64,000 bases of DNA from Hydrogenothermaceae bacterium (GTDB lineage: Bacteria; Aquificota; Aquificia; Aquificales; Hydrogenothermaceae). Shown piece by piece: positions 5,338 to 15,163 of the stretch. The notes beneath the pieces are model-generated. The model was not told the origin of the DNA, searched no databases, and saw nothing but the letters and a program-made list of their open reading frames with translations. The position numbers and the translations under genes were made by a program. Every line of letters begins with the position of its first letter. Position 1 is the stretch's first letter. The stretch covers positions 124,001 through 188,000 of the forward strand of contig JAOABC010000002.1 in NCBI GenBank assembly GCA_026418535.1, written 5' to 3'.

Positions 5338-6045
5338 ATGAAAGTCATGCCAGGTCCAGAAGGTTATATGCCAAAAGTAGCAGCTTTGGAAGGAGTAAAT
5401 CTCTCTTCTCCAGGGAAAGGTCTACTCTTCGGTGAGGAAGTAGATGAAGAAGTTGCAATGAGAGAAGCTGCTAGAGCTATGCTTACAAGACCTAATCCAA
5501 CTATATTCCCAGGTCCAAAGATCCTATGGGGTTGGAGCCCAAACGCTTTTGAAGAGGCTGATGCTATATTAGAACTAGCAAAAGAGATACCTAACTGTAG
5601 AATAATTCCAATGCCTGACTACAGGCCAAAGTATCCAAAGATAGACCCTGAAGCTGAGATAAACCCTAACCATCCAAACCTAACTATTCTACACAATAGG
5701 ATAGAAGCTTGTATATTCGTAGGAGTTCACTGTCATTACGCTAACCTATCCCTCAGGATGATAAGAGCTGGAACAAACTGTTTCACTATAGCTATCTGTG
5801 GTGAACTTGGACACGAAGATGCGATGGTATCCCTCAGAGATGCACACGGAGAAAAAATCAGGAAGTTCAAGCAAATAGTTATAGAAGAGAGAGAAAAACT
5901 TGGAATCCAGTGGGAGCCAAAACTACCACCACCAAACCCATCTCTACCAAAAGAGAATATGGAGACAATATCCTACGCAGACTATGGAGAATATGCTTTC
6001 TTACTCATGCCTAAGAAGGGTGAGATAGTCACAGATACAGAGTAA
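5338..6045 (+). CDS. 2-Oxoacid:ferredoxin oxidoreductase cluster 1, E (fifth) subunit
   Basis: A 235-residue protein of the type that forms the extra subunit of five-subunit OFORs known from Hydrogenobacter (ForE/PorE). The core (about residues 1-185) matches the E protein of cluster 2 (11734-12303) closely, with shared 'TIFPGP', 'DYRPKYPKI', 'NPNHPNLTI', 'CIFVGVHCHYAN' and 'GHEDAM' stretches. In my judgement the fold resembles the CO dehydrogenase/acetyl-CoA synthase epsilon-subunit family (CdhB-like); this is from memory. The cluster 1 copy has a C-terminal extension of about 45 residues (residues 190-235) absent from cluster 2. No iron-sulfur motif is present. Its role is presumably structural or electron transfer. 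Confidence 0.75.
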   Translation: MKVMPGPEGYMPKVAALEGVNLSSPGKGLLFGEEVDEEVAMREAARAMLTRPNPTIFPGPKILWGWSPNAFEEADAILELAKEIPNCRIIPMPDYRPKYPKIDPEAEINPNHPNLTILHNRIEACIFVGVHCHYANLSLRMIRAGTNCFTIAICGELGHEDAMVSLRDAHGEKIRKFKQIVIEEREKLGIQWEPKLPPPNPSLPKENMETISYADYGEYAFLLMPKKGEIVTDTE

Positions 6046-6076
6046 TAACTTTTAATTTATTAATGGAGGTAAAACC

Positions 6077-7246
6077 ATGCCAGAACAAAAAGTTGTAGAT
6101 ACAGATTACCTTTTACTAGAAGCTCCAAGAGAGCGTAAATTTATAACAGGTGCTCAGGCTATGGCTGAAGCTATAAAGAGAGCTAACGTAGATATGGCTA
6201 TAGCTTACCCTATCACACCTCAGTCTGAGGTTATGCACCTTGTTGGAGACCTTTGGGCTCAAGGTTATCTGAAGGACTATTACAGAGCTGAAGAGGAGTA
6301 TGGAGCTTTCTCTGCCATATCTGGTGCGGCAAGAGGTGGTGTAAGAGTTTTTACGGCTACATCAGGACCTGGTCTATTAAGAGGTCTTGAAGCTATAGCT
6401 TCATGGCCAGGACATAGGATACCAGCAGTTTTAGGTGTTTTAACAAGGGTAGTTAATGCACCTCTCTCTATTCAGCCGGATAACATAGAGATATCTTACC
6501 TGCTAAACTGTGGTGCCGTAGTTCTCCACGCTGAGAACCAACAGGATACGTTTGATTTCACTCTGGCGGCCTTTGCTATAGCAGAACAGGTAGACGTTTA
6601 CGTTCCTGTAGCTGTGGCAACAGAAGGCTTTTTTGTAACCCACGCAAAAGGTTATGTTAACATGACTCCGGAAGATATGAAGCTTCCTCCAAGAAATCCT
6701 TACAAGGCCCCAGTTCCACCAACTGACAACGAAATACCTCCAGCACGGATACAAAGAGATGCTCCGGTTCAGAAGTCTAACTTCATGAGCTATCTAATAC
6801 ACGCTGTATGGCAACAAGAGGTTTGGGCTTCAACAACAAGAGCGATGAAGTATATATACAAATACCTTGGTGGTCCTATAGAGGTTGTTAATCCAGATGC
6901 TGAGGTATTTATCGTTGCTTCTGGTTGTGCTGCGGCTCAGTCAAGGGAAGCTGTTAGATACGCTCAGTTAGAAGGTCTAAACGTAGGACTCGTTAAGGTA
7001 AAAGCTATAAGACCGTTCCCAGAGAAAGAGATAAGAAAAGTTTTAAAGAATGCAAAGGGAATAGTGGTTCCTGAGCATAATATAGTCGGTTGGTTGGCAA
7101 GAGAAGTAAAGGCTGCTATACCAAACAACGACAGAGTAGTTGGAGGTCCAAGAGTTTATGGTGGTATGACACTGCCAACAGAGCTCATCATGGACGAAGT
7201 TTACAAGATACTAGGTGTCAAGAAGGAAAGAAAAGTTTTAGTTTAA
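6077..7246 (+). CDS. 2-Oxoacid:ferredoxin oxidoreductase cluster 1, alpha (A) subunit
   Basis: Pyrimidine-binding and substrate-binding subunit of a thiamine-pyrophosphate 2-oxoacid:ferredoxin oxidoreductase. The 389 residues include YPITPQSE (near residue 45), the TSGPG loop, 'VVNAPLSIQPDN' (the family's substrate/TPP loop) and a C-terminal domain with 'KVKAIRPFPE'. It carries out reductive carboxylation of an acyl-CoA to a 2-oxoacid in the rTCA cycle. The substrate is either 2-oxoglutarate or pyruvate; position next to sucCD suggests 2-oxoglutarate, but no residue I can read settles it. The paralogue is at 12373-13569. Confidence 0.85.
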   Translation: MPEQKVVDTDYLLLEAPRERKFITGAQAMAEAIKRANVDMAIAYPITPQSEVMHLVGDLWAQGYLKDYYRAEEEYGAFSAISGAARGGVRVFTATSGPGLLRGLEAIASWPGHRIPAVLGVLTRVVNAPLSIQPDNIEISYLLNCGAVVLHAENQQDTFDFTLAAFAIAEQVDVYVPVAVATEGFFVTHAKGYVNMTPEDMKLPPRNPYKAPVPPTDNEIPPARIQRDAPVQKSNFMSYLIHAVWQQEVWASTTRAMKYIYKYLGGPIEVVNPDAEVFIVASGCAAAQSREAVRYAQLEGLNVGLVKVKAIRPFPEKEIRKVLKNAKGIVVPEHNIVGWLAREVKAAIPNNDRVVGGPRVYGGMTLPTELIMDEVYKILGVKKERKVLV

Positions 7247-7266
7247 TACATTAGGAGGTAAAAACT

Positions 7267-8139
7267 ATGGGTTTAGAATATGTCAGGATTACAACTGGTT
7301 TTGAAGACTATATGCCAAAAGACTATGTTGACTTAGTTAAGTATGGTCAGTTTGGCAAGGAGTACGATATACAAGATCTCGGAACTTTCAAAGAGCTTGT
7401 AGAAGAGCATCCTATGTGTGCAGGATGTTTTATGGCATATTTTATCAGGGTGTTCTATGCATCCTTACCTAATCCGGAAGATTCTATCGTTATAGGAACT
7501 GCTGGATGTGCAAGACTTCAGCTTTCCCAAGCTGCTGTTCCATTTATCTACGGAAACTATGGGGACACAAACGCGGTAGCCTCTGGTCTAAAGAGGGCTC
7601 TCGAGATAAGATTCCCAGACAAAAACAAGGATGTTATCGTAGTAGCTGGTGACGGTGGTCTTATGGATATAGGTTTTGGTATGACTATGCATTCTTGGTT
7701 TAGAAGAGAGAGATTTACTACTATAATGGTTGATAATGAAGTTTATGGAAACACAGGTGGACAGGAAAGTGGAATGTCTCCTAAAGGTGTCCAGTTAAAG
7801 ATGGCTCCAAAAGGTAAGAAGTTTGATAAGATAAATGCTGTTGAGCTTGCAAAAGCTGCAGGTTGCGTATATGTTGCGAGGATAGCTCCAACAAATCCAA
7901 AAAGATTGGCAAAAACTATAAAGAGAGCTATCTTGGCTGCAAGACATTTTGGACCGACCTTTATCCATGCTTACACATCTTGTAATATAGAGTACTCAAT
8001 ACCTACAGAGAAGGTCCTAGAGGATGCAAGAAACAGAGAAAAGAATGACTTTGCTTTCTATGAGTGGATGAGTGATGAAGTCAAAGGTTTCTTTGAGCAG
8101 GTAGAAACTAAGAAAAAAGAAGCTCAAGAAGTTAAATAG
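7267..8139 (+). CDS. 2-Oxoacid:ferredoxin oxidoreductase cluster 1, beta (B) subunit
   Basis: TPP and proximal [4Fe-4S] cluster subunit. The 290-residue protein has MCAGC near residue 52, a third cysteine in 'GTAGCARL' and a fourth in 'TSCNIEYS', giving the four ligands of the family. The TPP motif is GDGG...DNEVYGNTGGQ (residues 124-165). The gene lies 20 bp after the A subunit with an AGGAGG site. The residue after the CAGC motif differs from cluster 2 (CAGCFMA versus CAGCPEA), which could help in assigning substrates by comparison with characterised enzymes. Confidence 0.87.
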   Translation: MGLEYVRITTGFEDYMPKDYVDLVKYGQFGKEYDIQDLGTFKELVEEHPMCAGCFMAYFIRVFYASLPNPEDSIVIGTAGCARLQLSQAAVPFIYGNYGDTNAVASGLKRALEIRFPDKNKDVIVVAGDGGLMDIGFGMTMHSWFRRERFTTIMVDNEVYGNTGGQESGMSPKGVQLKMAPKGKKFDKINAVELAKAAGCVYVARIAPTNPKRLAKTIKRAILAARHFGPTFIHAYTSCNIEYSIPTEKVLEDARNREKNDFAFYEWMSDEVKGFFEQVETKKKEAQEVK

Positions 8140-8146
8140 TGTTTTC

Positions 8147-8173
8147 AAAGGTGGACTTATAGGGGCCGCCTTT
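8147..8173 (+). other. Intra-operon hairpin between B and G genes of OFOR cluster 1
   Basis: Inverted repeat AAAGGTGG / CCGCCTTT (one G-U pair) at 8147-8154 and 8166-8173, inside the 64-bp gap between two subunit genes and not followed by a T run. It could be an RNA processing or stability element rather than a terminator. Confidence 0.4.
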
Positions 8174-8203
8174 CACAATTAAGAAATCAGGAGGTTTTTA
8201 GAT

Positions 8204-8890
8204 ATGAAAAGGTATAACATCAGACTTGCAGGTGTTGGTGGACAGGGAGTTGTTACATCAGCTCACATCATAGGTAATGCGATGTCTAACTCTGGTAAGT
8301 ATGCTTCTTTAGTTCCTTTCTTTGGTTCTGAGAAGAGGATGGCTCCAGTTGAAGCATACGTCAGAGCATCAGACCAGCCTATCTATGAAGTTGGAGAGGT
8401 TATATTCCCTAACGTTATCATGATATATCACCCTCAAGTTATAACTCACGGAAAGTCTTACACTATGCCATTCTACTCTGGATTGAAAGAGAATGGTATG
8501 GTTATTATCAACACTGATGTAAATATTTTGACAGATGAGGACTGGAAGGTATTGGAAGAACTAAACACTAAGGTTATAGAGTTTCCAGCTACAAAGATAG
8601 CTCTAGAACTTGCAGGAACTGAGCTTGCAACAAACATGGCTATGCTCGGTCTATTTTTTGGAATAACTAAACTTGTATCTCAGGAAGATATAGAGAAAGC
8701 TGTTAGAGAAAGGTTCCTCGGAAATACCTTTGTAGCATCTGGTGGAACTGCAGCTCTTGATAGTGCAATAGAGAAGAAGTTCAAGAAGAAAGTAGAGCTA
8801 CTTGAAAAGAATATGATGGTAATTAAAGAAGCTTTCAAAATGGCTGAAGAGCAAGGTTGGGTAGAAGAAGAACAAACTGCCATAGCATAA
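8204..8890 (+). CDS. 2-Oxoacid:ferredoxin oxidoreductase cluster 1, gamma (G) subunit
   Basis: The 228-residue gamma domain of OFOR, which helps bind coenzyme A and holds the complex together. It begins with the classic 'RLAGVGGQGVVTSAHIIG' motif (residues 7-24), then 'FGSEKRMAPVEAYVR' and 'GTELATNMAMLGLFFG', the last typical of the family. The start has a strong GGAGG. The paralogue in cluster 2 (14444-15163) aligns along its length, with a different C-terminal tail. Confidence 0.87.
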   Translation: MKRYNIRLAGVGGQGVVTSAHIIGNAMSNSGKYASLVPFFGSEKRMAPVEAYVRASDQPIYEVGEVIFPNVIMIYHPQVITHGKSYTMPFYSGLKENGMVIINTDVNILTDEDWKVLEELNTKVIEFPATKIALELAGTELATNMAMLGLFFGITKLVSQEDIEKAVRERFLGNTFVASGGTAALDSAIEKKFKKKVELLEKNMMVIKEAFKMAEEQGWVEEEQTAIA

Positions 8891-8905
8891 AAGGAGGACT
8901 AGGTA

Positions 8906-9130
8906 ATGTACTATGTAGCGGAAGCAAAGGCCGACAAATGCTCTACTTACAAATGTAACCAGTGTGTTTTATTCTGTCCAGAGCCAAACACTCTTATGTT
9001 CTTACAAGCTAAGAATTTTGCTTACGTAAACCAAGCAAGATGTAAAGGTTGTGCAATCTGTGTTTATGTATGTGGTGATCTGTTGAAGAGAAACTGTATT
9101 GAGATGGTTATGACTACAGTTTCTGAATAA
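8906..9130 (+). CDS. 2-Oxoacid:ferredoxin oxidoreductase cluster 1, delta (D) ferredoxin-type subunit
   Basis: A 74-residue 2[4Fe-4S] ferredoxin-like subunit that takes electrons from the beta-subunit cluster. Two cysteine sets are visible: CSTYKCNQCVLFCP and CKGCAICVYVC, eight cysteines in all. The first has a C-x4-C spacing that is slightly unusual and is shared with the paralogue at 11473-11709. It is last in cluster 1 but first in cluster 2. A GC-rich hairpin follows at 9138-9154. Confidence 0.87.
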   Translation: MYYVAEAKADKCSTYKCNQCVLFCPEPNTLMFLQAKNFAYVNQARCKGCAICVYVCGDLLKRNCIEMVMTTVSE

Positions 9131-9177: not shown

Positions 9178-9465
9178 ATGGATAAAAAAGAATTTTTAAC
9201 TCAACTAGCTCAAAGGTTGGAATCTTCCTCAGTATCTGCAGATATAGACCTCGATATAAACTTCTTTGATGAAAGCAAAAATGTACTCCAAAAGCCTCAG
9301 ATCGTGGTTAAATACTTTCCTACTGAGAATAGTGTTAGACAAAAAGTCATAGACATATCTGATAACCTGTATGAGAAGAGCGTTGAAGATGCTTATAACT
9401 TCATCATCTTCCAGATAGAGCAATTTGAAGAAGAGATAGACAGTGTAGAGTTTAGTGGTGAATAA
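9178..9465 (+). CDS. Small acidic protein of unknown function, first gene of the inter-OFOR island
   Basis: I do not recognise this 95-residue acidic protein. It has no cysteines, no signal peptide and no membrane segment; the C-terminal half (residues 55-90) looks helical and strongly acidic. It starts with ATG behind GGGGAGG and overlaps the next gene by 11 bp, so translation of the two is probably coupled. Placement between two OFOR clusters, and coupling to a GTPase, suggest a partner or adaptor of that GTPase; this is inference only. Confidence 0.65.
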   Translation: MDKKEFLTQLAQRLESSSVSADIDLDINFFDESKNVLQKPQIVVKYFPTENSVRQKVIDISDNLYEKSVEDAYNFIIFQIEQFEEEIDSVEFSGE

Positions 9466-10378
9466 GAAGTCTTACATATTCACTGGATACCTAGGTAGCG
9501 GAAAAACAACCTCTATGATTAAAGTCATAGAGGACTTTTTTAAAAATAAAAAAGTTACCTTTATAGTCAACGAGTTTGGGGAAGTTAGTATAGATGGTAA
9601 AGTTATCTCCGGAAGCATAGCAAATGCTAATATAGTAGAGATAAATGAAGGGTGTGTATGCTGTGTCCTTTACGATGAGTTGAACAAGGTTCTGTCTGAC
9701 CTGCAGTCCAAATATGACTTTGAGTATCTCTTTATAGAAACTTCTGGGCTTTCTGAACCTTTCCCAATATATTCCACTTTGATCTCTCTAGGCTTTGAGG
9801 TTGAGAGTATTATCTGTCTAGTAGATAGTTTAAACTATAAGAAGTATGCTGATGATGATCTGTTTAGATACCAGATAGGAGCCTCTAACGTCATCGTTCT
9901 AAACAAGATTGACCTGATAGGAGTTAAAAGAGCTCAAGAGGTTAAAGAGGAGATAGTATCCATAAAAGAAAAGTATAACCTAAAAAACTTTTTAACCGGA
10001 GAGTACCTCATTCCTAAGTATGAGATAGTTGAGACATCTTATGGAGAGCTTCCTGAATATATCTTTAAAGATCTAAAGATTCCTCTTTTATCTAAAGAAC
10101 AGCTTGACCATTTCCAAGACAAACACTCTCACCAAAGCTATATTCAGGAAGTTTTCAATTATCCAGTGAACGCTCTCTATTGTCAACAGTTTGAGAAACT
10201 TGTGGGAAGTTTTCCAAAGAACTTGGTGAGGGCAAAAGGAATCCTTAAGTTTAAGGATGTTGATATTCCTCTGCTTTTCAACTACTCCTATGGAAATTAC
10301 ACCTTCCAGGAGTATCCCGAAGATATTGAGCAGAGTGTTGTTGTGGCTATATACAAGAATGAACTGAAGGTGGTCTAA
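9455..10378 (+). CDS. COG0523/CobW-type P-loop GTPase (putative metallochaperone)
   Basis: G3E-family GTPase of 307 residues. Walker A is GYLGSGKTT (residues 11-19), the hallmark metal-binding GCVCC is at 66-70, 'ETSGLSEP' follows near residue 95, and the guanine-specificity NKID is at 150-153. A histidine-containing stretch (DKHSHQS, near residue 225) precedes a short C-terminal CobW-like domain. Relatives (CobW, YjiA, ZNG1, nitrile hydratase activators) insert or deliver metals. The start is GTG at 9455 or 9458, overlapping the previous gene. Wedged between two iron-sulfur/TPP oxidoreductase operons, it may serve their maturation or metal supply; that role is unproven. Confidence 0.82.
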   Translation: MVNKKSYIFTGYLGSGKTTSMIKVIEDFFKNKKVTFIVNEFGEVSIDGKVISGSIANANIVEINEGCVCCVLYDELNKVLSDLQSKYDFEYLFIETSGLSEPFPIYSTLISLGFEVESIICLVDSLNYKKYADDDLFRYQIGASNVIVLNKIDLIGVKRAQEVKEEIVSIKEKYNLKNFLTGEYLIPKYEIVETSYGELPEYIFKDLKIPLLSKEQLDHFQDKHSHQSYIQEVFNYPVNALYCQQFEKLVGSFPKNLVRAKGILKFKDVDIPLLFNYSYGNYTFQEYPEDIEQSVVVAIYKNELKVV

Positions 10379-10445
10379 TACTTTTTATCATAGAAAATCT
10401 TTTTAAGATTTATATTTTTTCCTGTTAAAAAAGATGAGGTGAGAT

Positions 10446-11276
10446 ATGGGAAAATATTACTATCCGGATTTAGAAACGGTTAAAGCTCAAAAGGAGCTCA
10501 TACGGTCAAAGGTAGCTTTAGAAGAAGATAAGCTGCTTCCTTCTTTGGATGGAAGGTTTAGTCCTTACAGATACTTCAAACATAACGTAAGTATACAACC
10601 CTCACATGGTCCTCAAAATCGTGGAGTTATTAATGAAACAACCTTCAGCAAGATAAGAGAAGAAGGTAAGCTCGTTCCTTACACCGTTCCGACTGAAAGA
10701 AGTTATGCAATAGTAGAACTTCAAGACCTGACAAGTGAGAGGAGGATAACGAATTTACTCTATGATGCTATATACGAGGGAATACCAATCTCTGACTTAA
10801 AGATAGGTCTTGAGATAGTTGCTCTTAGAGTTATTGAAGCTATTAAAGAAGGCTATAAGACTATTATACTCTCTGATCTGGAAGTTCTTCCAAATAGAAT
10901 CTCTCTGCCACTTCCTTTTGTTCTTGCATTTCTAGAGTCATTACTATCCGAAAACTCTATAGACCATTCTGAACTATCTATGTATATAGAGACTCAAGAG
11001 GTTTCGAATCCATTCGAGATTGCTACACTGCTATCCCTTGGTGCTAAGGGAGTATACAATAGATCATTTGAGGAAGATATAGTAGATCTTATCAACTCAT
11101 ACATTCAGGATTTATTAGAGAAGAAGGGAGTCTCTAGTTTAAGAGAGTTTATAGGCTCCAAGAATGTGACTATCGTTGGTTTAAAGAACGATTTTCTAGC
11201 TTTGTTAAATCCAACTTTAAAGTCTTCCTTTGAAGTGGAGGGTTTAGTTGAGATAGAAAGCTATCTGTTCCATTAG
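10446..11276 (+). CDS. Stand-alone glutamate synthase central-domain homologue
   Basis: A 276-residue protein whose residues about 110-260 follow the central domain of glutamate synthase: an 'ILSDLEVL' strand, 'LPLPFVLAFLESLL' (compare LPVPAPMAVGAI of GltB), 'IETQEVSNPFEIATLLSLGAKGVYN' (compare VETASARDPHHFAVLLGFGATAIYP) and 'GVSSLREFIGSKNVTIVGL' (compare GISTIASYRCSKLFEAVGL). The glutaminase domain, the FMN domain and the [3Fe-4S] cysteines are absent. The N-terminus (residues 38-70, with SIQPSHGPQNRG) is unrelated to anything I recognise. It cannot make glutamate alone. It lies between the two OFOR operons behind the GTPase. Confidence 0.7.
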   Translation: MGKYYYPDLETVKAQKELIRSKVALEEDKLLPSLDGRFSPYRYFKHNVSIQPSHGPQNRGVINETTFSKIREEGKLVPYTVPTERSYAIVELQDLTSERRITNLLYDAIYEGIPISDLKIGLEIVALRVIEAIKEGYKTIILSDLEVLPNRISLPLPFVLAFLESLLSENSIDHSELSMYIETQEVSNPFEIATLLSLGAKGVYNRSFEEDIVDLINSYIQDLLEKKGVSSLREFIGSKNVTIVGLKNDFLALLNPTLKSSFEVEGLVEIESYLFH

Positions 11277-11388
11277 ACTAGTTATAGCTATTATTATTCA
11301 TCGACTTCTAATAGCTCAGTGGATAGATGTTAAACACTACACCAGACTGTGTACTGAGTGGGTAAGACTGGTAGAGGTAGACAGAAGG

Positions 11389-11410
11389 AAAAACAGCTTG
11401 TTTTTGCTTG
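11389..11410 (+). terminator. Possible terminator before OFOR cluster 2
   Basis: AAAAACA / TGTTTTT stem (11389-11395 and 11399-11405) with a 3-nt loop, the 3' arm ending in T residues. AT-only pairing makes it weak. Confidence 0.4.
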
Positions 11411-11432
11411 ACGATGGGAATTTTGTTCAATT

Positions 11433-11442
11433 GTGATATAAT
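11433..11442 (+). promoter_or_regulatory. Extended -10 promoter element for OFOR cluster 2
   Basis: A perfect TATAAT (11437-11442) with an upstream TG (TGATATAAT) lies 30 bp before the cluster 2 ferredoxin gene. The nearest TTGACG (11408-11413) is 23 bp away, too far for a usual -35, so the extended -10 may do most of the work. Confidence 0.55.
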
Positions 11443-11472
11443 TTTAACAAACCTTAAAAGGAGGTCTATATT

Positions 11473-11709
11473 ATGTATTACGTTGCTGAAGTTATAAACG
11501 ATGAATGCACCAAGTATAAGTGTAACCAATGTACACTTTTCTGTCCGGAGCCAAACACTCTGATGTATGTCAATAAACCGGAAGAAAGACATGCTTACGT
11601 AGTTCCAGAGAGATGTAAAGGATGTGCTCTTTGTGTATATGTATGTGGTAACCTGTTGAAGAGGAATGCTGTACATATGATCATGCCAGAGCTCCATGCG
11701 GCGACATAA
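11473..11709 (+). CDS. 2-Oxoacid:ferredoxin oxidoreductase cluster 2, delta (D) ferredoxin-type subunit
   Basis: A 78-residue paralogue of 8906-9130, with the same CTKYKCNQCTLFCP and CKGCALCVYVC cysteine sets for two [4Fe-4S] clusters. It has a 4-residue insertion between the two sets (NKPEERHAY). Here the gene opens the cluster instead of closing it. It has an AGGAGG ribosome site. Confidence 0.87.
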   Translation: MYYVAEVINDECTKYKCNQCTLFCPEPNTLMYVNKPEERHAYVVPERCKGCALCVYVCGNLLKRNAVHMIMPELHAAT

Positions 11710-11733
11710 ATCTAAAGTTTAGGAGGTTTAAAT

Positions 11734-12303
11734 ATGGCTAAGTTAGGACCGATGGGATTTTCACCATACCCAGCAGCAGTAAAAGAAGGAGTTCTTAATC
11801 CTCCGGAAGGAAAAGCTCTACTTTTTGATGAGATGGTTGATGAAGAGATAGCTATGAAGAAAGCAGCAAGAGCGATGTTAACGAGGGAGAACCCGACTAT
11901 ATTCCCTGGACCACAAGTCCTCTACGCTTGGAGTGAGGATGCAAAGAAGAAAGCAAAGTTAATCAAAGAATTAGCAGATGTTTTTGGTGCTAAGATAATA
12001 CCTATGTATGACTACAGACCAAAGTATCCAAAGATAAATCCGGAGGTTGAAATAAACCCGAACCATCCTAACCTTACTATATGGCATAATAACATAAAGG
12101 CGTGTATATTCGTAGGTGTTCATTGTCATTATGCAAACGTTGCTCTTAAGATCATTAGAGCGGAAACAGACTGTTTTACTATAGCTCTTTGTAGTATGGA
12201 AGGTCATGAAGATGCTATGATAACTCTGAGAGACCAGCACCCTAGTGAACTTGAGAAGTTTATAGAGATAGCTAAAGAGGTTAAAAGAGAATTAGATAAA
12301 TAA
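11734..12303 (+). CDS. 2-Oxoacid:ferredoxin oxidoreductase cluster 2, E (fifth) subunit
   Basis: A 189-residue counterpart of 5338-6045, sharing 'MLTRENPTIFPGP', 'MYDYRPKYPKINPE', 'NPNHPNLTIWHN' and 'CIFVGVHCHYANVALKIIRA'. It lacks the C-terminal extension of cluster 1. It lies 24 bp after the D gene. As in cluster 1 there are no cofactor motifs. Its resemblance to the CdhB-type epsilon fold is my impression only. Confidence 0.75.
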   Translation: MAKLGPMGFSPYPAAVKEGVLNPPEGKALLFDEMVDEEIAMKKAARAMLTRENPTIFPGPQVLYAWSEDAKKKAKLIKELADVFGAKIIPMYDYRPKYPKINPEVEINPNHPNLTIWHNNIKACIFVGVHCHYANVALKIIRAETDCFTIALCSMEGHEDAMITLRDQHPSELEKFIEIAKEVKRELDK

Positions 12304-12317
12304 TGATAAATATCATT
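12302..12317. promoter_or_regulatory. Perfect palindrome after OFOR cluster 2 E gene
   Basis: AATGATA / TATCATT with a 2-bp centre, overlapping the E-gene stop. It precedes the possible promoter at 12326-12354. The sequence recalls half of a Fur-type operator (GATAATGATAATCATTATC), but similarity to one AT-rich consensus is weak evidence. Confidence 0.35.
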
Positions 12318-12325
12318 GAAGTAGT

Positions 12326-12354
12326 TTGTATATATAAGGATGTTTTTCTATAAA
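12326..12354 (+). promoter_or_regulatory. Possible internal promoter before OFOR cluster 2 A gene
   Basis: TTGTAT (12326-12331), 17-bp spacer, TATAAA (12349-12354), 18 bp before the A-subunit start. The 69-bp gap between E and A is long for this operon, which fits an internal promoter. Confidence 0.4.
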
Positions 12355-12372
12355 ATCTAGGAGGTATAGATC

Positions 12373-13569
12373 ATGTCTAACATCTCAGCTCAAGAAGTCC
12401 AATATAATAAATCCGGTCAGAAGATAGTATCTCCCGACTATCTTCTTTTTGAAGCCCCAAGGGAAAAATTTTTTATGACAGGTTCAGAGGCTGTTAAGGA
12501 AGCTGTTAAAAGAGCTAGTGTTGACGCCTCCGTCTCTTACCCAATCACACCTCAATCTGAGGCTGCACACCTTATAGGGGAGCTGTGGGTAGAAGGTTAT
12601 GTAGGTGTTTACTTCAGAGGTGAGTCTGAATTTGGTGTTATGTCTGAGGTTGCTGGTTGTGCTTTAGCTGGAGCAAGAACTATCACAACAACATCAGGTC
12701 CGGGAACTTTGAGAGCTTTCGAAAACTTCCCGATGTGGGCAGGAACAAGGATACCAGTTCAGTTAGTTCTGATGGCAAGGGGTGTTAACGCTCCTCTATC
12801 TATTCAGCCAGACAACTTAGAGGTAGGGTTTCTCTTAGATACAGGTTGTATGATATGGTATGCAGAGAATGCTCAAGACCTGTTTGATATGATTCTTGCT
12901 GGATTTGCTGTTGCAGAGCATCCATCTGTTCACGTTCCTGTCATTACTGTAGTCGATGGTTTCTTTGTATCTCATACAAGGGAAGCTATAATGTTACCTC
13001 CGGAAGACATAGCACTGCCACCTTACAATCCATACAAGGCTCCAATGCCTGTTATAGACCTTGAAGCACCTCCAGGAAGGTTCTTAAGAGATCCATTCGT
13101 TATGAAATCTAACTATATATCTTATGCTACTCATGCAAGCTGGCAGTTTGAAGTTAGAGCTGCAATAGAAAGGTCAAGACCTTATGCTAAACACTACCTA
13201 AGAGGCCTTATTGAAGAGTTTGGAAATCCGGATGCAGAAATAGTGTTCGTGGCTACAGGAACAGCTGCATCTCAAGCTAAAGAGGCTGTCAGACTTCTAA
13301 AAGATGAAGAAGGTGTAGACGCTAAGGTTGTTAAACTGAAGACTATAAGGCCGTTCCCTGAAGAAGAACTAAAAGTTGCTACAAAGAATGCTAAGTATAT
13401 ATTTGTTCCAGAGTTTAACGTAGTAGGATGGTTGGAAAGAGAAGTGAGAAAGGTTCTCTATAAGCATTCTGACGCAGAGATTATAGGAACTCCAAGGGTT
13501 GCAGGTGGTATGACAATGCCTGCGGAAGTTATAGTGTCTGAAGTTATGAACAACTTAAGAGTTAAGTAA
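12373..13569 (+). CDS. 2-Oxoacid:ferredoxin oxidoreductase cluster 2, alpha (A) subunit
   Basis: A 398-residue paralogue of 6077-7246 with YPITPQSE, TSGPG, 'GVNAPLSIQPDN' and the C-terminal 'KLKTIRPFPEEEL' transketolase-C-like domain. It binds substrate and shares TPP with the beta subunit. It begins with about 10 residues more than the cluster 1 protein. It differs in the substrate-facing segment (e.g. 'ESEFGVMSEVAG' versus 'EEEYGAFSAISG'), consistent with a different 2-oxoacid. By elimination cluster 2 might be pyruvate synthase, but the reverse assignment is possible. Confidence 0.85.
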   Translation: MSNISAQEVQYNKSGQKIVSPDYLLFEAPREKFFMTGSEAVKEAVKRASVDASVSYPITPQSEAAHLIGELWVEGYVGVYFRGESEFGVMSEVAGCALAGARTITTTSGPGTLRAFENFPMWAGTRIPVQLVLMARGVNAPLSIQPDNLEVGFLLDTGCMIWYAENAQDLFDMILAGFAVAEHPSVHVPVITVVDGFFVSHTREAIMLPPEDIALPPYNPYKAPMPVIDLEAPPGRFLRDPFVMKSNYISYATHASWQFEVRAAIERSRPYAKHYLRGLIEEFGNPDAEIVFVATGTAASQAKEAVRLLKDEEGVDAKVVKLKTIRPFPEEELKVATKNAKYIFVPEFNVVGWLEREVRKVLYKHSDAEIIGTPRVAGGMTMPAEVIVSEVMNNLRVK

Positions 13570-13586
13570 TATAGGAGGTTTTAGGT

Positions 13587-14447
13587 ATGTCTTTCAAAAT
13601 TTTTCAGATAAACGAAGAGTTTGTAGATGTAATGCCAAAGGAGATAGTTGAGCTTCAAGAGAATGCAACTTGGGGAAATCCAAAAAGAGGAGTGATAGAC
13701 CTTCCCTTCCACAAGGAACTGATAGAGGAACACTCTCTCTGTGCTGGTTGTCCTGAAGCGGCAGCGTTAAGGTATATAATGGCTTCCATACCTGCCCCGG
13801 AAGATACAGTTATCGTAAACTCAACAGGTTGTACATCCCTTGTGTTCCCTCATATAGCTATGCATACTATCCACTCTCTCTTTGGAAACCAGAATGCGGT
13901 AGCTTCAGGAATAAAGAGAGTACTAGAGTATAGGTATCCGGATAGGACAAAGGATGTTATAGTTCTTGCTGGGGACGGTGCTACAGTTGATATAGGTTTG
14001 GACTGCACTCTACAATCTTTCTTCAGACAGGAGAGAATTACTACCATATGTTTTGATAATGAGGTTTATGCAAACACAGGTGGTCAAGAGAGTGGTATGA
14101 CACCAAAGGGACACGTATTTAAAATGGCACCAAAAGGTAAACAGTTTGAGAAAGTTCCAATGTGGCAAATTGCCATAGACTCAGGTTGTCATTATGTTGC
14201 AAGACTAACAGTCTCCTCTCCAAAAAGAGTTGAGTCTGTTATAAAGAAAGCTGTATATGTTGCAAGGGAAGTGGGTCCTACTTACATTCACCTTTATACA
14301 CCTTGCATACTTGAGATAGGCCTAAACTCCGACCAAGGTTTAGAGGAGATGAGAAGTAAAGATAAAGAAAGATTTGAGTTTTTTGAATACGTATCACCTG
14401 CTGCTGCAGAGATTATCGAAAAACGTAAAGCGGAGGGTTTACTATGA
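13587..14447 (+). CDS. 2-Oxoacid:ferredoxin oxidoreductase cluster 2, beta (B) subunit
   Basis: TPP/[4Fe-4S] subunit of 286 residues. The CAGC motif near residue 51, 'NSTGCTS' and 'TPCILEIG' supply the cluster cysteines; GDGA...DNEVYANTGGQ is the TPP motif. It lies 17 bp after the A gene, and its stop overlaps the G-gene start (ATGA), showing tight translational coupling. The paralogue is at 7267-8139. Confidence 0.87.
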   Translation: MSFKIFQINEEFVDVMPKEIVELQENATWGNPKRGVIDLPFHKELIEEHSLCAGCPEAAALRYIMASIPAPEDTVIVNSTGCTSLVFPHIAMHTIHSLFGNQNAVASGIKRVLEYRYPDRTKDVIVLAGDGATVDIGLDCTLQSFFRQERITTICFDNEVYANTGGQESGMTPKGHVFKMAPKGKQFEKVPMWQIAIDSGCHYVARLTVSSPKRVESVIKKAVYVAREVGPTYIHLYTPCILEIGLNSDQGLEEMRSKDKERFEFFEYVSPAAAEIIEKRKAEGLL

Positions 14448-15163
14448 AAAGAAAGAGAGTAAACATCAGGATGCCGGGTCTTGGTGGACAGGGAGCTGTT
14501 ACAGCTGCTCACATAATAGCAACTGCTGCTGATTATGAAGGGTATTATGCTGTATCTAACCCTTTTTTCGGTGCTGAAAAGAGGATGGCGCCTGCTGAAA
14601 GTTATGCACGGATTGGTATAGAGCCTATATTTGATAGAGGAGAGGTAGTATATCCGGATGTTATAATGGTTTTTCACAACCATGTTATAACTATGGGTAA
14701 ATCCTATACTATGCCGTTCTACTCTGGGATAAAGAAAAATGGTCTTATAATAATAAATACAGAAGAAGATCTACTCAACCAGTCTGACAAAGCTTTCTTG
14801 AACTCTTTAAATGTTAAAGTTTACAACTTTCCTGCTACAAAGTTTGCTGTTGAGCAAGCAGGAACAGAGCTTGCTACAAATATGGCTATGGTAGGAGCTT
14901 TGTTTGGATGTATAGGCTCTGTGGGTCTGGAAGCTATAGAAGAAGGTATAAAAGCAAGGTTCTTGAAGAAGTTCGTCGCATCTGGTGGAACCGCTTCTCT
15001 TGACTCTGCTTTAGAGAGAAAGTTTAAGAAAAAGTTAGAGCTAATAGAGAAAAACCTAAACACTGCAAGATCTGCATATGAGCTTGCTTCTTCATGGGCA
15101 AAATCCCAAGGCTTAGAAGACTTCTTACCACCACCTCCTAAAAAAAAGTTAGAAGTGGCATAA
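14444..15163 (+). CDS. 2-Oxoacid:ferredoxin oxidoreductase cluster 2, gamma (G) subunit
   Basis: A 239-residue gamma subunit, with 'RMPGLGGQGAVTAAHIIA' near the N-terminus, 'FGAEKRMAPAESYAR' and 'GTELATNMAMVGALFG'. It ends in a proline- and lysine-rich tail (PPPPKKK) absent from cluster 1. It overlaps the B gene by 4 bp and is the last gene of the cluster. A GC-rich hairpin follows at 15175. Confidence 0.87.
   Translation: MKRKRVNIRMPGLGGQGAVTAAHIIATAADYEGYYAVSNPFFGAEKRMAPAESYARIGIEPIFDRGEVVYPDVIMVFHNHVITMGKSYTMPFYSGIKKNGLIIINTEEDLLNQSDKAFLNSLNVKVYNFPATKFAVEQAGTELATNMAMVGALFGCIGSVGLEAIEEGIKARFLKKFVASGGTASLDSALERKFKKKLELIEKNLNTARSAYELASSWAKSQGLEDFLPPPPKKKLEVA

Follow-up and report, generated by a model that had tools for sequence, protein, structure and literature searches.

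The subject of this analysis is a group of three genes in a 64,000-nucleotide stretch of DNA (the window) from a Hydrogenothermaceae bacterium of the phylum Aquificota (GenBank assembly GCA_026418535.1, contig JAOABC010000002.1, positions 124,001 to 188,000), here genome G000. The three genes lie between two operons for five-subunit 2-oxoacid:ferredoxin oxidoreductases (OFORs), which are putatively specific for 2-oxoglutarate (OGOR, encoded by OFOR1) and for pyruvate (PFOR, encoded by OFOR2). In these thermophilic bacteria both enzymes act as CO2-fixing carboxylases in the reductive tricarboxylic acid (rTCA) cycle. The island genes encode, in order, a small acidic protein (ORF95), a GTPase of the COG0523/CobW type and a protein that matches only the central domain of the glutamate synthase GltS (GltS-central). 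A first-pass annotation, made from the window alone, had described three genes on the same strand, the first two overlapping, between two five-subunit OFOR clusters, and the open reading frame (ORF) coordinates agree: all three frames are intact and lie on the + strand, and the frames of ORF95 and the GTPase overlap by 11 nt. The features of the locus are:

5338..9130, + strand: OFOR1, the OGOR (For) genes in the order D-A-B-G-E (ORFs; NCBIfam; PF02552 for D; Aquifex aeolicus gene order).
9178..9465, + strand: ORF95, acidic OGOR companion gene, 95 amino acids (aa), with 21 aspartate and glutamate and 9 lysine and arginine residues.
9455..10378, + strand: COG0523/CobW-type GTPase, 307 aa, GTG start (PF02492).
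10446..11276, + strand: stand-alone GltS central-domain protein, 276 aa (PF04898).
11306..11340, + strand: scar, internal piece of dabA (blastn against dabA of G078, the comparison genome of the same genus).
11355..11436, + strand: scar, 3' end of dabA with its stop codon kept (blastn and tblastn).
11473..15163, + strand: OFOR2, the pyruvate:ferredoxin oxidoreductase (Por) genes in the order E-D-A-B-G (ORFs; A. aeolicus PFOR locus tags; PF02552 for D).

OFOR1 has the organisation of a five-subunit OGOR operon, with the D-A-B-G-E order and a PF02552-type D subunit. Its A, B, G and E subunits match NCBIfam models, mostly below the equivalog cut-offs, and its D subunit has no NCBIfam match. Both D subunits (window 5338-6045 and 11734-12303) belong to PF02552, the epsilon family of carbon monoxide dehydrogenase/acetyl-CoA synthase (CODH/ACS). 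The delta-alpha-beta-gamma-epsilon order of OFOR1 is the locus-tag order of the A. aeolicus OGOR (aq_1166-1171), and the E-D-A-B-G order of OFOR2 fits the locus tags of the A. aeolicus PFOR (PMC10052474; what we say of the articles cited here refers to the parts of them available to us, unless the main text is named). We assign OFOR1 as the five-subunit OGOR and OFOR2 as the pyruvate enzyme, their substrate specificities being putative. Subunits, gene orders and the CODH/ACS-epsilon-like D subunit are the same as in the Aquificaceae five-subunit OGOR and PFOR of A. aeolicus and H. thermophilus. The published Aquificaceae enzyme has at least five subunits, and the available part of its description includes no ORF directly downstream of the epsilon gene; the role of the CODH-epsilon-like D subunit has been called intriguing (PMC10052474).

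The strongest result of this work is the unbroken adjacency of OGOR and ORF95. Gene families were mapped by tblastn on 100 stretches from Aquificota genomes, centred on matches to OGOR, ORF95, the GTPase or DabA (a protein of the DAB inorganic-carbon pump), and adjacency was counted in the 62 genomes with a match of more than 55% identity to forE, the OGOR epsilon gene. In 62/62 genomes, spanning 14 genera, the first recognised gene beyond forE is ORF95, on the same strand and with 0-144 bp between the ends of the two matches. 'Recognised' means belonging to one of the families searched, so that any small ORF of another kind lying between the two would be invisible; since the gaps are so short, a gene of ordinary size between forE and ORF95 is not possible. 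With this choice of stretches, a solitary OGOR-type forE elsewhere in a genome would escape the count. ORF95 is itself followed by the GTPase in 37 genomes, directly by DabB in 10 and by GltS-central in 1, while 14 have no searched family within 2.5 kb or reach the end of the stretch. Next after the GTPase in these 37 genomes is SbtA in 15, same-strand dab in 12, opposite-strand dab in 6 and GltS-central in 3, and in 1 the contig ends.

We next consider presence and absence across 136 genomes, for which presence sets were compiled by hand from homology-search tables. OGOR and ORF95 occur together in 61 genomes, OGOR only in 7, ORF95 only in 1 and neither in 67; in the seven OGOR genomes without ORF95 (G007, G014, G017, G020, G045, G067 and G103) the contigs stop ahead of forE. 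The corresponding figures for OGOR and the GTPase are 58, 10, 3 and 65, so that the GTPase was found in 58 of 68 OGOR genomes and not in 10. Here ORF95 'present' denotes an OGOR-type copy, and eight genomes with weak matches only, some of them paralogues, were scored as absent; for the GTPase, three genomes with weak matches only were left out and G016, with a partial match, was kept; and OGOR was scored from other subunits in G011, G048 and G075 and from a partial D in G041. In the largest family, f2 (64 genomes), ORF95 occurs with OGOR at p=2.9e-7 and with DabA at p=0.21, and the GTPase with OGOR at p=1.4e-3 and with DabA at p=0.54, these Fisher p values being descriptive since the genomes are related and kinship is ignored. 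All eight f2 genomes without OGOR are also without ORF95. An OFOR link is thus supported for ORF95 and, less tightly, for the GTPase. The first-pass annotation had tied the island to both OFORs; the tie stands for ORF95 (62/62) and for the GTPase (adjacent in 37/62, present in 58/68), and the conserved tie is to OGOR, not to both enzymes.

The genes that follow raise an alternative, in which ORF95 and the GTPase would serve inorganic-carbon uptake, for example through zinc loading of a carbonic-anhydrase-like DabA, and would stand beside OGOR through co-regulation of uptake and fixation. Dab or Sbt genes come next in most loci with sufficient reach, one of the at least fifteen COG0523 subgroups has been linked to zinc (PMC2770081), and in family f1 (41 genomes) the p values for OGOR and DabA are identical, leaving the two indistinguishable as partner of ORF95 and the GTPase. 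A role of the GTPase as DabA chaperone was indeed the reading we initially favoured, and it was the genome census that demoted it to a rival. SbtA replaces Dab after the GTPase in 15 genomes, 14 of which have no DabA match and yet keep both ORF95 and the GTPase, so that DabA is not the common client. The f2 associations with DabA given above also speak against it, as do six g2/g4 genomes in which dab lies on the opposite strand while ORF95 and the GTPase are co-oriented with OGOR, and G000 itself, which keeps both genes without a DabA match although its loss of the pump looks recent. We therefore regard a role in carbon uptake as possible but doubtful.

Several loci from this survey are recorded here for their gene content. 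In L053, L054, L142, L143 and L144 (g2/g4), opposite-strand dab follows OGOR-ORF95-GTPase and stands ahead of por where the stretch reaches that far; L053 and L054 have a small gene next to dabA, which in L053 is hemerythrin-like according to Pfam. In the A. aeolicus-like genome G001, ORF95 is followed by an ORF for part of a carbamoyl-phosphate synthase large subunit (L087 7160-8773), an enzyme that uses bicarbonate. Upstream of forD the same stretch encodes a topoisomerase and a protein of 125 aa, matching the description of reverse gyrase 2 and Aq_1163 in PMC10052474. In G100 (89% complete), which gave no match to OGOR D, ORF95 or the GTPase, an ORF that is transposase-like by eye (L081 1921-3546) lies ahead of dab, where genome G097 has OGOR, ORF95, GTPase and GltS-central.

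For ORF95, Pfam gives no match up to E=1, and the PDB gives no sequence match for the profile of its family. A Pfam scan of 19 family members gave a single match, to DUF2110_N at 0.0085 in one of the 19, which we take to be chance. The single-sequence structure model has the order alpha-beta-beta-beta-alpha with a predicted local distance difference test score (pLDDT) of 76.7, and a Foldseek comparison of this model with the PDB returned 293 matches at E<=10, none of them at E<=0.001. Across 63 aligned OGOR-type rows, acidic residues exceed basic ones by 11 to 18, and the C-terminus reads QFmEEIDSVEYgGE (capitals for residues in at least 90% of rows), with EEIDSVEYGGE in most members. Paralogues at 20-30% identity are found on stretches L070, L071, L072, L073, L076, L085 and L086, several of them in Aquificaceae beside ATP-synthase, rpsO-pnp or RNase R genes (neighbours named by eye).

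The position of these paralogues beside several housekeeping operons, together with the fact that the GTPase is unlinked in several genomes, would suit a hitchhiking explanation in which both genes are driven from the strong OGOR promoter while their products act elsewhere. An adjacency of 62/62 over 14 genera exceeds usual promoter sharing, however, and hitchhiking also sits poorly with the eight f2 genomes that are without both OGOR and ORF95. We judge it no more probable than a function in carbon uptake.

The GTPase matches cobW PF02492 at E=1.5e-39 (135.9 bits, cut-off 20.7), and scores 21.5 bits against CobW_C, whose cut-off is 22. Residues invariant in 45/45 aligned rows, one of which is another COG0523 protein, are G11, G14, G16 and K17 of the Walker A motif, C67, C69 and C70 of the CxCC motif, and K151 and D153. 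The cobW domain, Walker A and CxCC are shared with COG0523/CobW G3E GTPases such as CobW, ZigA and Nha3; the island protein differs from these in its neighbourhood, the OGOR operon, and reaches the cut-off of none of the NCBIfam models listed. By analogy with Nha3, the nitrile hydratase activator, it may serve a single enzyme. In the GTPase tree, whose root has no meaning because the intended outgroup proved to be an adjacent protein of a different type, unlinked rows are interspersed among linked ones and the linked label requires four changes. In 12 of 16 relevant places of the article that describes the COG0523 subgroups, none is OFOR-linked, and its main text does not name Aquifex (PMC2770081). 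A candidate client is suggested by the OGOR D subunit, in which H131, C132, H133, C148, C154 and H159 are invariant in 64/64 rows; this set (HCH...C...C...H) is a candidate metal site.

The history of the gap can be read from related genomes. The corresponding gap of G078 contains, in order, ORF95, GTPase, GltS-central, a NuoL-like DabB, a 187-aa protein without a Pfam match, DabA (PF10070, 3.2e-196) and OFOR2, and G097 has the same arrangement plus SbtA (PF05982) and a P-II-like gene. A DAB pump, taken as dabB together with dabA, is thus present in G078 and G097 and absent from the window. The 196-bp gap ahead of OFOR2 in the window nevertheless contains two pieces of a former dabA. Positions 11306-11340 align with G078 dabA (L048:16095-16129) at 80% over 35 bp, a short match (blastn, 32.8 bits, E=0.003), and positions 11355-11480 align with L048:16375-16500 at 103/128 columns (blastn, E=1e-27), the alignment extending past the stop codon of dabA and into the leader of porE; by tblastn a DabA match at 68% starts at window 11347. 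DabA has no match anywhere in G000 (99.94% complete) and DabB none in the window, the remainder of G000 not having been searched for DabB; an SbtA gene lies elsewhere in G000, outside the island locus. The alignment of the gap with two portions of G078 dabA shows that the pump has been lost, and so recently that the scar is still legible. The island is therefore the remnant left by deletion of dabB-x-dabA. The first-pass annotation had it inserted exactly between the two OFOR operons, which is right as to position; what looked like an insertion is the deletion product of a larger block that included a carbon pump. The window accordingly carries a conserved OGOR operon tail (ORF95 and GTPase) and a lineage-specific GltS-central gene.

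Such a recent deletion could mean that the remaining island genes are drifting relics. The legible scar is in keeping with this, and nonsynonymous divergence (dN) of ORF95 is somewhat higher for the window (0.459 to G097, 0.496 to G098) than for G078 (0.398 and 0.375). With synonymous sites at saturation, which keeps selection from being finely measured, and a pump loss that seems recent, dN is weak evidence either way. The three frames are intact, however, and the other two genes show no acceleration in the window lineage: dN for window-G097 and G078-G097 is 0.331 and 0.317 for the GTPase, and 0.371 and 0.382 for GltS-central. Furthermore, the G098 locus, which has no pump, no visible dabA scar and no GTPase, keeps ORF95 and GltS-central (DabA and a GTPase of the family lie elsewhere in G098). 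We consider drifting relics unlikely.

The third gene was described in the first-pass annotation as the central domain of GltS only, and profile searches confirm it: residues 92-218 match Glu_syn_central (PF04898; E=3.2e-11, 43.6 bits, cut-off 22.8), and the 276-aa protein has no Pfam match to the glutaminase, flavin mononucleotide (FMN)/2-oxoglutarate (PF01645) and GXGXG domains with Fe-S cysteines or to any other GltS domain. It shares the PF04898 family with the glutamate synthase large subunit, from which it differs in standing alone. It aligns with the central region of four Aquificaceae GltS proteins at 34-36% over 220-240 columns and with the full GltS of G000, encoded elsewhere (catalytic domain at C25:78850), at 23% over 170 columns. 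The first 55-75 residues of the window copy are unmatched in Aquificaceae GltS; the G097 and G098 copies align over a longer range and more weakly. A PDB sequence search gave no match for the protein alone, and glutamate synthase at E=0.17 as the best for its profile. Its single-sequence model (pLDDT 40.7) was not used. A PF04898-type search matched 80 of the 136 genomes, but a stand-alone protein is found in only four (G000, G078, G097 and G098), always at the island locus, the remaining matches lying within longer GltS frames. A 232-aa frame at G029:C1:820835 was set aside, being by eye what we take to be a MerR/IS607-type recombinase, and a Nitrospira match proved to be an ordinary 1505-aa GltS. 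GltS-central is a lineage-specific addition. Judged from its domain content it cannot perform GltS catalysis, and an adaptor or scaffold role appears likeliest.

These observations bear on two further proposals of the first-pass annotation. One, that the three genes form a single dedicated module, fails on distribution, with GltS-central in 4/136 genomes and the GTPase not found in 10/68 OGOR genomes; the co-occurrence beside OFOR genes that the annotation named as a check holds in that the GTPase is mostly OGOR-linked, whereas GltS-central, though always at an OGOR locus, is rare. The other is that the three genes sense nitrogen or 2-oxoglutarate status for the OFORs. The island does adjoin a 2-oxoglutarate-producing enzyme, and P-II-like genes occur in many homologous loci. 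These follow SbtA or DabA, however, with or without GltS-central, and GltS-central, besides its rarity, matches no FMN/2-oxoglutarate domain, presumably the one that holds FMN and 2-oxoglutarate, while a separate full-length GltS is present in G000. A sensor of this kind is very improbable.

We favour, at roughly even odds (a probability of about 0.5), a reading in which ORF95 is an assembly factor or sixth component dedicated to OGOR, into which the GTPase inserts a metal. The first-pass guess of an assembly or activation function thus pointed in the right direction for the first two genes and one OFOR, OGOR, though not for the island as a unit. ORF95, small and acidic, would act as an assembly or stability factor, or as a sixth, loosely bound component, docking on OGOR through its near-invariant C-terminal tail. 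GTP hydrolysis by the GTPase would control metal insertion into OGOR, possibly at the Cys/His set of the D subunit. The neighbouring carbon-uptake genes (SbtA and P-II-like, or DabB and DabA) would raise inorganic carbon for the carboxylating enzymes, and GltS-central may derive from a GltS of the Aquificaceae type, taken up by the window lineage as an additional accessory. The A. aeolicus OGOR is slightly larger than PFOR on native gels, for which the authors considered a possible extra protein, naming Aq_1163 (PMC10052474).

A number of observations weigh against this assignment to OGOR. In the A. aeolicus pull-down, the companions of OGOR were Aq_1163 and reverse gyrase 2, and no product of a gene downstream of epsilon (PMC10052474). 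The ORF95 family, with its paralogues beside other operons, is not OGOR-specific, and in f1, as noted above, DabA is as good a partner as OGOR. All three island genes diverge much more quickly than those for the OGOR subunits, with a window-G078 dN of 0.205 and 0.247 for ORF95 and the GTPase and 0.021 for forA. The GTPase, unlinked in several genomes, was not found in the four genomes of genus g20 (G059-G062, one of them 69% complete), which have OGOR and ORF95. The Cys/His set is shared by Por-D (25 or 26 of 26 rows) and by Nitrospira D (2/2), the latter without a linked GTPase, which weakens the client argument. G065 (99% complete), one of the 62 genomes with forE, keeps forE-ORF95, although no OGOR D gene was found and A, B and G do not adjoin. 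Finally, the three stretches read from Nitrospira genome G136 have OGOR homologues without ORF95 or the GTPase, indicating that OGOR as such does not need them, and ORF95 had no match in 198 genomes of that phylum, in a search without a positive control. As far as we have looked, ORF95 appears to be an Aquificota addition. On the G065 contigs themselves (L056, L055), forE and ORF95 adjoin a two-subunit OFOR and the GTPase lies on a separate contig beside dab and por.

A bolder form of the favoured reading would make OGOR a six-gene core operon, with ORF95 founding a new Aquificota protein family of assembly factors, each dedicated to one complex, of which one copy would serve OGOR and the rest would be those next to ATP synthase, rpsO-pnp and RNase R. 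The COG0523 GTPase would load metal into the D-subunit Cys/His site. We offer this only tentatively, as the less probable version. To our knowledge, a metal site and maturation step of this kind is known for no 2-oxoacid:ferredoxin oxidoreductase.

Co-location of DAB and SbtA transporters with rTCA genes, also seen here at many OGOR loci, has already been published, with the connections between dissolved inorganic carbon transporters and rTCA genes described as yet to be studied (PMC10880623). The available part of that article makes no mention of the ORF95-GTPase tail or of a pump deletion, and 'CobW' and 'GTPase' do not occur in its main text. In the titles and abstracts searched, we found neither an ORF95-OGOR link nor a GltS central protein standing alone. 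ORF95 and the GTPase often adjacent to it would provide two handles on the assembly of the oxygen-sensitive OGOR and PFOR in micro-aerobic bacteria, and they may matter for the transfer of OGOR into other hosts.

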